From Bacteroidales bacterium Bact_11 (lineage in GTDB: Bacteria; Bacteroidota; Bacteroidia; Bacteroidales; UBA932), in contig LUZC01000042.1 in NCBI GenBank assembly GCA_001603505.1, positions 1 to 64,000 of the forward strand: a stretch of DNA of 64,000 nucleotides. Reading direction: 5' to 3'. Below the pieces are notes generated by a model. That model was not told the origin of the DNA. It saw only the letters and a program-made list of their open reading frames with translations, and made no database searches. Position numbers and translations under genes: made by a program. Each line of letters begins with the position of its first letter. Position 1 is the stretch's first letter. Positions 31,475-35,000 of the stretch are shown piece after piece.

Positions 31475-32662
31475 ATGGTCAAAGATATCAGCAAGTCTGT
31501 CAAATTCATCGGTGTGGACGATCTCGACCTCGACCTGTTCGAGAGCCAGTACGTTGTGCCCGAAGGTATGTCTTACAATTCCTATCTCATTCTCGACGAG
31601 AAGGTCGCCGTGCTCGACACGGCCGACATCCGGAAAGGCGAAGCGTGGAAGGCCAATCTGGTTGAAGGCCTGGCCGGCCGCACGCCCGACTACCTGGTGG
31701 TCCACCACATGGAACCCGACCATTCCGCGCTGGTGGCCTGGATGCTGGCCGAGTACCCGTCCGTGACGCTGGTGGCCACGGCTGCCGCCTTGAAGATGCT
31801 GCCGCAGTTCTTCGAGGGCATCGACTTGGAAGGCCGCACGCTCACCGTGAAGGAAGGCGACACGCTGTCGCTCGGCAGCCACAGCCTGCGCTTTTTGATG
31901 GCGCCGATGGTGCACTGGCCGGAAGTCATGGTGTCGTATGAAGCTTCTGAGAAGCTGCTCTTCTCGGCCGATGCCTTCGGCCGTTTCGGCGCCATGGAGA
32001 AGATCGCTTTCTGGAGTGCCGATGATGACGACTGGGCCTGCGAAGCCCGCCGCTATTACTTCAATATCTGCGGCAAATACGGCGTCCAGGTACAGAACGT
32101 GCTGAAGAAACTCGTCGGGACGGACATCGCGATGATCTGTCCGCTCCACGGCCCGATTATCAACGAGAACCTCGGGTATCAAATGGGTTTGTACCGGACC
32201 TGGAGCAGCTATGGCGTGGAAACCGAGGGTATTTTCGTGGCGTATGCTTCCATCCACGGCGGTACGGCTGCCGCGGCGGAACGCTTTGCCGAAATGCTTC
32301 GCGAGAAGGGCTGCCCGAAGGTCTCCGTGGCCGACATCACGCGCGACGACATTGCGGAATGTGTGGAAGACGCCTTCCGCTACGGCAAGATGGTGCTGGC
32401 CGCCTCGTCGTACGACGCCGGCGTGTTCACCCCGATGCACGACTTCCTTTACCGTCTTCAGGCCAAGGGCTATCAGAAACGCACCGTGGCCCTGATTGAA
32501 AACGGCAGCTGGGCGCCCAGCGCCGGCCGCGTCATGAAAGAGATGCTCGGTGCGATGAAGGAAATCACCATCGTGGAGCCGCTGGTCACCATCCGCAGCC
32601 GCATGCATGCTGAAGATCTTCCGAAATTCGAAGTCCTTGCCGACGCCATCCTGAATGCCTAG
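31475..32662 (+). CDS. Flavodiiron protein (FprA-type A flavoprotein)
   Basis: HHMEPDHS di-iron motif; ICPLHGP; C-terminal flavodoxin domain (VAYASIHGGTAAAAERFAEML). Confidence 0.92.
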   Translation: MVKDISKSVKFIGVDDLDLDLFESQYVVPEGMSYNSYLILDEKVAVLDTADIRKGEAWKANLVEGLAGRTPDYLVVHHMEPDHSALVAWMLAEYPSVTLVATAAALKMLPQFFEGIDLEGRTLTVKEGDTLSLGSHSLRFLMAPMVHWPEVMVSYEASEKLLFSADAFGRFGAMEKIAFWSADDDDWACEARRYYFNICGKYGVQVQNVLKKLVGTDIAMICPLHGPIINENLGYQMGLYRTWSSYGVETEGIFVAYASIHGGTAAAAERFAEMLREKGCPKVSVADITRDDIAECVEDAFRYGKMVLAASSYDAGVFTPMHDFLYRLQAKGYQKRTVALIENGSWAPSAGRVMKEMLGAMKEITIVEPLVTIRSRMHAEDLPKFEVLADAILNA

Positions 32663-32673
32663 CGCCGACTCCG

Positions 32674-34419
32674 ATGATTCGACTGGAGAACAACAGCGCG
32701 GTGGGCCCGTATCGGGTGGAGCGTTTCATCAAGGACGGCGTTTTCAACAGCAGTTATGTAGTGGCGGACGCCCAGGGCGGGCGCTGCTTCCTGAAACTGT
32801 TCGACATAAAGTCCATCCCTGCATCCTGGCTCCAAGAGGGGGAAGTGGTAGAAATCGTCAACAGCCGCGGCCTGAAACACGAAAATGTGATTTCTTATGT
32901 GGCCGACGGAAAGGTGGAACTGGATGGAACCTCGTACCCTTATCTGGCCATGCAGTTCTACAACGGCATGCTCTTGTCGGAAATCCTGAGCTCCGGACGC
33001 CAGTTTACCTCGGAAGAGGTGCGCAACGTCGCCTGTTTCGTGCTCGAAGGGCTGAAGTATCTCCGGAACGAGGGCCTGCACCACAATGATATCTGTCCGC
33101 GCAACATCCTTTTCGAGTCGTCTACCGGCAGGCTGATGCCGAAACTCATCGACCTGGGCCACGCCTGTCATGAAATCACCGACGGAAAGCTTCCTTTTCC
33201 GCTGGAAGACCTGAACCTGCTGTATACGGCGCCGGAAGCGATGGACGGCGTGTTTACCGATGCGAGCGATGCGTTTTCTGTGGCGGTGCTGCTCTATACG
33301 CTGATCTGCGGCCAGGAACCCTGGCGGGTCAACTTGGACGAACGGGATTCGTTTGAGGAGCGGAAGAACCGGATGAAGGCGGCCAGGCAGCGTGAGCCGG
33401 TCTGGCCTGCGGCCTTGCATGCCAGCGACCGCGTGTTGCAGAACCTCGTGCTGACGGGCCTGCAGATGAACCCGGCCAACCGTCCTACGCCCGCCCGGAT
33501 GCTGGAACTGCTGACCGGCGAGAGCGTCGACGAACGGCAACGCACAGACAACGGCGTCAAGCCGAGGAAACCTGTGCCATCATCGGGACTTACCGCCACG
33601 ACCGACGGAACGGAGCTGAAAAAGACCCTGCAGCGCAATACCAGCAGCGGCGGCTTTGCCGACGTGGCCGGCATGGAAGACCTCAAGAAGATGCTGACCG
33701 AACGGGTGATCTGGGTGCTCCGCGACCGCGAAAAAGCCAGGAAATACCGGCTGTTGCCGCCCAACGGCATGTTGCTTTATGGTCCTCCGGGTTGCGGAAA
33801 AACCTATTTCGCTGAAAAATTCGCCGAGGAATCCCACTTCAACTACATGGTGGTCAACGGTTCGGACGTGGGCAGCACCTACATCCACGGAACGCAGGGA
33901 AAGATTGCGGCGCTGTTCCAGGAAGCGGCTGCCAAGGCGCCCACCGTGCTCTGTTTCGACGAATTCGATTCTTTTGTACCGGCGCGCGGCAGCGAAGCCG
34001 CACGTCATCGCCCCGAGGAAGTCAACGAGTTCCTGTCGCAGCTCAACAACTGCGCCCAGAAAGGCATTTTCGTGATCGGCACCACCAACCGGAAAGACAT
34101 GATTGATCCGGCCGTCCTGCGAAAGGGCCGTCTCGACCTGTTGGTCGAAGTGCCTGCTCCGGAGCCCGAAACACGCCGACAGATGTTTATCCATCACCTC
34201 AAGGGCCGGCCACTGGCCGATGACATCGATTTCGACCGCCTGGCCGCCCTGACCGACGGCTACGCCTCCTCCGACATCGCCTTCATCGCCAACGACGCCG
34301 CCCTGGTCGCCGCCCTGGCCGACGAGCCCATCACCCAGCGACACCTCGAGGATTCGATCCGCTGCAATCCGTCATCCCTCGCCCGCAAGGACGAGCGCAT
34401 CCCCATCGGTTATCGATAG
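32674..34419 (+). CDS. Fusion protein: N-terminal Ser/Thr-kinase-like domain + C-terminal AAA+ ATPase (Cdc48/FtsH-like)
   Basis: Kinase: CFLKLFD (VAIK-like), GLHHNDICPRNILFE (HxDxxxxN), PKLIDLG (DFG-like), YTAPEAM (APE). AAA+: LYGPPGCGKT Walker A, VLCFDEFD Walker B, GTTNRKDMIDPAVLRKGRLD sensor-1/Arg-finger region. Confidence 0.88.
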   Translation: MIRLENNSAVGPYRVERFIKDGVFNSSYVVADAQGGRCFLKLFDIKSIPASWLQEGEVVEIVNSRGLKHENVISYVADGKVELDGTSYPYLAMQFYNGMLLSEILSSGRQFTSEEVRNVACFVLEGLKYLRNEGLHHNDICPRNILFESSTGRLMPKLIDLGHACHEITDGKLPFPLEDLNLLYTAPEAMDGVFTDASDAFSVAVLLYTLICGQEPWRVNLDERDSFEERKNRMKAARQREPVWPAALHASDRVLQNLVLTGLQMNPANRPTPARMLELLTGESVDERQRTDNGVKPRKPVPSSGLTATTDGTELKKTLQRNTSSGGFADVAGMEDLKKMLTERVIWVLRDREKARKYRLLPPNGMLLYGPPGCGKTYFAEKFAEESHFNYMVVNGSDVGSTYIHGTQGKIAALFQEAAAKAPTVLCFDEFDSFVPARGSEAARHRPEEVNEFLSQLNNCAQKGIFVIGTTNRKDMIDPAVLRKGRLDLLVEVPAPEPETRRQMFIHHLKGRPLADDIDFDRLAALTDGYASSDIAFIANDAALVAALADEPITQRHLEDSIRCNPSSLARKDERIPIGYR

Positions 34420-34421
34420 TT

Positions 34422-34454
34422 TTGGTACGGAATTAGAAAGAATTCCTATCTTTG
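34422..34454 (+). promoter_or_regulatory. Bacteroidota-type promoter for the LolA-like gene
   Basis: TTG 34422-34424, 22-nt gap, TATCTTTG 34447-34454. Confidence 0.5.
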
Positions 34455-34484: not shown

Positions 34485-35000
34485 ATGAAGAAAATACTGA
34501 CGCTCCTTTGTCTGTCGCTGGCCATATTCACGACCTATGCACAGCAAATTGAATGCACATTCACGCAGGACAAAACCATCCAAGCCTCCGGTAAAGTGAT
34601 CCACTCGGAAGGCGTTATCTCCTTCAACGGTTCCGACCAGCTCACCATGACCTATACCAAGCCTGCTGGTGAATACCTGGTTATCTCAGGCCCGATGCTT
34701 CGTTCCAACGCCAATGGCCAGAGCATTTCCGTGGATACCGACAAGAACGCCCGCTTCCGTTCGTTGCGCAACACACTGCTCAATTGCATCACGGGCCAGT
34801 ATGAGCAAGCCGCTGCCGACAACGATGCGGAATTGCAGGTTTCTGAAAAAAGCGGGGTGAAAACCGTTTCGATGAAAGCGCGCAAGAATGCGCCCCGGGG
34901 TTATTCCCGGATTGTGATGGAATACATCAAAGAACTCCCCGTGCGCATGGTACTTGAGGAGTTTGGCGGTATCTCCACCGAGTATTTCTTCAAATATTAA
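34485..35000 (+). CDS. LolA-like outer-membrane lipoprotein-carrier-fold protein
   Basis: Signal peptide; CTFTQDKTIQASGKVIHSEGVISFNGSDQLTMTYTKPAGEYLVISG pattern typical of LolA-like proteins. Confidence 0.7.
   Translation: MKKILTLLCLSLAIFTTYAQQIECTFTQDKTIQASGKVIHSEGVISFNGSDQLTMTYTKPAGEYLVISGPMLRSNANGQSISVDTDKNARFRSLRNTLLNCITGQYEQAAADNDAELQVSEKSGVKTVSMKARKNAPRGYSRIVMEYIKELPVRMVLEEFGGISTEYFFKY

Follow-up and report, generated by a model that had tools for sequence, protein, structure and literature searches.

A kinase-AAA+ fusion gene in a gut Bacteroidales bacterium: a candidate protein-remodeling motor with relatives in an Hsp70 gene cassette

The fusion gene and its two domains

The window, a 64,000-nt stretch of contig LUZC01000042.1 from the gut bacterium Bacteroidales bacterium Bact_11, contains a gene whose product joins a protein kinase fold to a single AAA+ module (Table 1). 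A previous reading of the DNA made without database searches (hereafter, the sequence-only reading) had described one uninterrupted 581-aa ORF uniting these domains, and the Pfam matches, predicted fold and orthologs all bear this description out. Nine intact full-length relatives at 72–80% identity were found in other Bacteroidales MAGs, and a tenth member of the same clade (genome G053, locus L080) showed 68–69% identity. It could be argued that the ORF is an assembly chimera or a decaying gene: at locus L014, an internal deletion has left only a short ORF, which indicates that the gene can be lost. The chimeric artifact that the sequence-only reading had warned of is ruled out by full-length, single-ORF orthologs (68–80% identity) in other assemblies, and purifying selection on both halves argues against decay. 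We consider this explanation extremely improbable. The relic itself (L014:5920-6237) retains the start and the end of the protein in one short ORF, with the middle gone, and still lies directly downstream of a flavodiiron gene.

The N-terminal half matched the Pfam Pkinase family over residues 55–277 (E = 2.9e-26; 92.9 bits against a cut-off of 31.7). The AF2 model of residues 1–290 (pLDDT 86, pTM 0.85) presented a kinase fold, and its top PDB matches in Foldseek were kinases (PknB 6i2p, 5u94, 1o6y; E ~1e-16). The initial interpretation depended on a kinase fold in these residues, and this fold is present. The bilobal architecture and the Pkinase score above the curated cut-off identify this half as a Hanks-type domain. 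The residue set K41, E60, D139, N144, D160 and G162 is complete and invariant in the window clade, and the motifs that had been read by eye all hold: the lysine, an HxDxxxxN catalytic loop with Lys replaced by Cys, DLG, APE (residues 186–188) and a degenerate Gly-rich loop. Two features depart from the Hanks pattern, namely this Gly-rich loop (KDGVFNSSY) and the absence of the catalytic-loop Lys at D+2, which is Cys in the window protein and Thr in most relatives. The position D+4 is occupied by an Arg that is invariant in the window clade (HNDITPRN); Arg at this position is a tyrosine-kinase pattern. The alpha-C helix is short in the AF2 model. The window assembly, which is 81% complete, yielded no other Pkinase match and no match to a PP2C_2-type phosphatase.

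The C-terminal half matched Pfam AAA over residues 366–494 (E = 2.7e-32), and AAA_lid_3 was matched below its own cut-off (23.4 versus 27.2 bits). The nearest solved relatives of this half are p97/Cdc48. Walker A and B, sensor 1, Arg fingers, an aromatic pore loop and a lid, whose Asp is invariant in 29/29 family members, assign it to the classical AAA+ proteins (Cdc48/PAN/FtsH clade). The motifs proposed earlier for this half were correct, except that the third pore-loop residue is His, where Gly is usual. The protein is not an FtsH protease, as the ORF stops after the AAA lid without a zinc metalloprotease (equivalog score of 157 versus 600 bits), nor is it a CDC48 protein, as it has one AAA module and scores 180 bits against a curated cut-off of 803. 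The full-length AF2 model has low scores (pLDDT 66, pTM 0.49) and does not fix the relative placement of the two halves.

Table 1. Features of the kinase-AAA+ locus (window coordinates).
Feature	Position	Strand	Basis or conservation
Flavodiiron protein gene, ends 11 bp upstream of fusion gene	31475..32662	+	PF19583
Kinase-AAA+ fusion gene	32674..34419	+	Single ORF, 581 aa; orthologs in other assemblies
Hanks-type protein kinase fold, residues 9-281	32698..33516	+	Pfam PF00069, AF2, Foldseek
K41, beta-3 (VAIK-type) lysine	32794..32796	+	Invariant in clade; family K 27/29, R 2/29
Catalytic loop HNDICPRN, residues 137-144	33082..33105	+	D139 invariant in 10 close orthologs
DLG (DFG-type) motif, residues 160-162	33151..33159	+	Sequence and alignments
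Variable linker, residues 286-326	33529..33651	+	39-73% identity among orthologs; low pLDDT in full-length model
Single classical AAA+ module with lid, residues 327-560	33652..34353	+	PF00004, PF17862, p97 D2 homology
Walker A GPPGCGKT, residues 370-377	33781..33804	+	K376 29/29
Pore loop 1, Y403-I404-H405	33880..33888	+	Y/F 29/29; His/Asn at third position 28/29
Walker B TVLCFDE, residues 424-430 (D429/E430)	33943..33963	+	E430 29/29
Sensor 1 (to N472) and Arg-finger pair R483/R486	34081..34131	+	N472, R483 29/29; R486 28/29
TATCTTTG, Bacteroides-type -7 box before next gene	34447..34454	+	Read from sequence
LolA-like gene, separate transcription unit	34485..35000	+	PF03548, E 1e-4, just under cut-off

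Local gene order and the flavodiiron neighbor

The sequence-only reading had placed a flavodiiron gene 11 bp upstream in the same orientation and had given the next gene its own promoter. Both statements were confirmed at the window locus, where the LolA-like gene is preceded by TATCTTTG (34447-34454), which we take to be a Bacteroides -7 box. The short gap and the shared strand make co-transcription of the flavodiiron and kinase-AAA+ genes plausible here, and both G053 (L080) and the L014 relic show the same order. These observations favor the earlier suggestion that an active kinase-AAA+ protein cooperates with its flavodiiron neighbor during stress by NO or O2. We mapped the neighbors of 10 intact same-clade loci, the window included, leaving out L009, a near-duplicate of L008. 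A flavodiiron gene was directly upstream on the same strand at only two of them (the window and L080), besides the relic; the other eight present an M3 peptidase gene or unrelated genes upstream instead. At L006 and L007, the flavodiiron gene is divergent and lies beyond the upstream M3 peptidase gene. Five loci (L002, L003, L004, L005 and L008) have AraC-type and LolA-like genes nearby and no flavodiiron gene in the examined stretch, and L001 presents none of the window's neighbor genes, flavodiiron included, in its examined stretch. No recurring flavodiiron cluster was observed in the distant family contexts examined. Because the adjacency is not conserved, we attribute it to chance in the local arrangement of genes; the comparison of loci gives the NO/O2 proposal no support. 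We rejected it as very unlikely: the flavodiiron gene is probably a neighbor rather than a functional partner.

Relatives across Bacteroidota and the Hsp70 cassette

Full-length relatives at 32–50% identity are distributed patchily through the family, the order and the phylum (Bacteroidota). At the cut-offs used, matches were found in 15/200 genomes of the family and 18/393 genomes of the order, some of them to the AAA part only, and only one plasmid record presented a region covering 80% of the query. Homology extends across kinase, linker and AAA, which makes the window protein a member of a Bacteroidota kinase-AAA+ family. Gene clustering of the flanks places 23 of the 29 full-length loci from outside the window clade in an Hsp70 cassette. 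The commonest order is a J-like/CFI-box-CTERM gene, a coiled-coil protein (~300 aa) with a membrane segment, Hsp70 (~840 aa; PF00012, E = 1e-71), the kinase-AAA+ gene and a TerB-like gene (PF05099, E = 4e-5, just under the cut-off; this cluster is present in 17 loci). Cassette completeness varies and some loci have fewer than five genes. A YbjN-like gene (weak YbjN match) follows the kinase-AAA+ gene at L091, L094 and L100, and Hsp70 adjoins the AAA gene also at L041, at L102 and in the IMG/VR contigs L106 and L107. The RefSeq label of one cassette kinase-AAA+ protein (WP_013769014.1) is simply 'AAA family ATPase', and the cassette seems to be unnamed.

The assignment of the first cassette protein as a J-domain protein is only a lead from its sequence, as it has no HPD motif and no Pfam match to a J-domain, and its PDB J-protein match has an E-value of 0.95. 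At L086:4335-6053, this protein opens with a conserved, J-domain-like NPYR-LG...A..EI without HPD, and some relatives of it carry a CFI-box-type tail at their C-terminus. The family also includes AAA-only versions lacking the kinase half (L067:9709-11627, L068:9154-11250 and L069:8956-10449), which are adjoined by one or two small YbjN-like genes.

Neither the Hsp70 nor the TerB partner of the cassette adjoins the window gene, and neither was found in its 81%-complete assembly. In our tree, the window clade is supported at 100/100, its grouping with L081 at 100/99 and its grouping with the other non-cassette rows at 99/97 (15 rows). Loss of the cassette in the window clade is likely; the tree, being unrooted, does not decide between such a loss and original absence.

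Several members of the family are found in mobile settings. A Haliscomenobacter plasmid carries the kinase-AAA+ cassette beside BREX genes. On the IMG/VR contig L106 (421-7752), a weak match to a portal protein lies within a few kb of the J-like, Hsp70 and kinase-AAA+ genes, and this cassette may be carried by a phage or prophage. On L107 (164-12855), J-like, Hsp70 and AAA genes are followed by genes for a NucS-like protein, a DNA/RNA non-specific endonuclease and an integrase. Neither Pfam nor hhalign recognized a kinase in the N-terminal half of the L107 AAA protein, and the idea that this half is a degenerate kinase found no support from hhalign; the Hsp70-AAA pair is kept although the N-terminal half is unrecognizable as a kinase.

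These mobile contexts, together with the patchy spread of the family, raise the possibility of an anti-phage or stress-conflict system in which the kinase-AAA+ protein would be the sensor or the effector motor. The kinase and AAA halves also match portions of the PADLOC MAD6, PD-T4-6 and IetA models. These matches are partial and domain-sized, fall short of the whole models and their partners, and are what any Hanks kinase or AAA protein would give; an NCBIfam anti-phage ATPase model scored 89 bits versus 510. The flanks of 21 cassettes consist mostly of ordinary genes: their 83 neighbor proteins, which were compared to defense families without a control set, gave scattered matches only and no recurring defense family. 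The window copy itself has housekeeping surroundings. We consider a role in defense unlikely.

Constraint, mechanism and known systems

Both halves of the protein are constrained, and the AAA part is far more so: dN/dS among same-clade orthologs is 0.025–0.06 for the AAA part versus 0.16–0.32 for the kinase part. This is the pattern expected for a conserved engine with a regulatory or docking domain that evolves faster. Overall, only 32% of kinase positions are invariant across 10 same-clade sequences; K41, E60, D139, N144, D160, G162, E188 and R270 are all among them, and this contrast makes kinase activity plausible in the window clade. Across 29 diverse family members, the catalytic residues of the AAA+ module are almost invariant. 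In contrast, the position of D139 is Asp in nine members, Glu in 12 and another residue in eight; it is thus replaced in 20/29 (by E, N, A, G or S), whereas the nucleotide-site Lys is kept in 27/29 and the Glu at the position of E60 in 28/29. The full K-E-D-N-D-G set was found in 7/29 members, including all four sampled from the window clade. Since most members lack the kinase catalytic residues, phosphorylation cannot be the mechanism of the family as a whole.

Our preferred interpretation, which we hold with moderate confidence, is that the protein is a Cdc48-type AAA+ remodeling motor in which the kinase-fold N-domain has a regulatory or partner-docking role. Judging from its motifs, the AAA+ module would assemble as a single-ring hexamer whose Tyr-hydrophobic-His pore loops pull on client proteins. 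The kinase fold would stand in place of the N-domains that p97 and PAN use to bind substrates or cofactors, docking clients or partners and switching the motor through nucleotide binding. Kinase activity may persist in some clades, the fold having decayed in most to a nucleotide-binding module. The window clade keeps the catalytic set; its kinase may still work, with the protein itself or the clients held by the motor as possible substrates. Because relatives elsewhere in Bacteroidota are encoded in the Hsp70 cassette, the principal role across the family is probably chaperone-like, Hsp70 plus AAA+ being analogous to DnaK plus ClpB. As far as can be seen from the assembly, the window protein would act in the absence of the cassette Hsp70 and TerB, and a chaperone function for it is thus a transfer by homology at 32–40% identity. 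The sequence-only reading had proposed that the kinase phosphorylates substrates or gates the motor: a protein remodeler remains probable, and phosphorylation does not hold as a family-wide mechanism.

A narrower version of the motor interpretation, differing from it on catalysis, is that the kinase half is a pseudokinase that binds nucleotide or partners without phosphotransfer, in the window protein as well. The degenerate Gly loop, the missing catalytic-loop Lys and the short alpha-C helix all point in this direction, as do the replacement of D139 in most members, with K41 and E60 retained, and the lack of a PP2C_2-type phosphatase match in the 81%-complete window assembly. The invariance of D139, N144, D160 and G162 in the window clade would be unexpected if catalysis had been lost anciently, and the tyrosine-kinase-like Arg at D+4 also argues against such a loss. 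Pseudokinase function in the window protein is a serious possibility, yet we judge it to be somewhat improbable. More speculatively, the family might constitute a mobile bi-chaperone system of Bacteroidota, with Hsp70, a J-like protein and an AAA+ motor coupled through a mostly pseudokinase N-domain, of which the window clade would be a free-standing offshoot with a working kinase that couples phosphorylation to unfolding in one polypeptide. We put this scenario forward tentatively, as one that is rather unlikely to hold in full.

Regulation of AAA+ unfoldases normally comes from adaptors or kinases that are distinct proteins. Here the kinase fold is fused to the motor; its catalytic intactness in one clade and its erosion in most others allow a direct comparison of two roles on an unfoldase, phosphorylating enzyme versus allosteric docking domain. 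Through its Hsp70 cassette, the family is further linked to protein quality control or to conflict with phages. Neither kinase folds nor Cdc48-type AAA modules are new in themselves; their fusion and its cassette appear to be undescribed: the open-access full texts searched, which leave most subscription papers outside their coverage, yielded no description of either, in agreement with the sequence-only reading, which knew of no characterized protein of this architecture.

Among the closest known systems, some combine Hsp70 with NTPases. These are the GAP1-N2 GTPase conflict systems containing Hsp70 (PMC7159879) and the McrBC-centered CoCoNuTs (PMC11090510), and some related systems possess inactive kinase domains or a SpoVK-type ATPase. 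As far as the available parts of these two papers describe them, the systems differ in being centered on a GTPase or McrBC and present no kinase-AAA+ fusion. The AAA+ modules of Cdc48/p97 D2, PAN and FtsH show 28–34% identity to that of the window protein and share its motifs, the Arg-finger pair and aromatic pore loop included. Unlike these proteins, the window protein has one ring, a kinase fold as its N-domain and His as the third pore-loop residue (His or Asn in the family), without the p97 N-domain, the PAN OB domain or the FtsH protease. PknB-type Hanks kinases share the fold and most catalytic residues; at ~20% identity, the window kinase differs in its degenerate Gly loop, its lack of the catalytic-loop Lys, its short alpha-C helix and its fusion to AAA+ without a transmembrane or PASTA part. 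An unfused archaeal counterpart is found on a Thermococcus peptonophilus plasmid (L103:5389-9016), where genes for a protein kinase, an AAA-type ATP-binding protein and a PP2C phosphatase are adjacent; the kinase and AAA genes resemble the window fusion in lying side by side and differ in being separate, archaeal, 25% identical and accompanied by the phosphatase gene. Finally, WP_013769014.1, from the Hsp70 cassette of the Haliscomenobacter plasmid, is homologous to the window protein over its full length, with the same domain order and a similar length. Such cassette kinase-AAA+ proteins are distinguished from the window protein by their 32–39% identity to it, by a catalytic motif that is mostly HNE rather than HND and by their Hsp70 and TerB neighbors.
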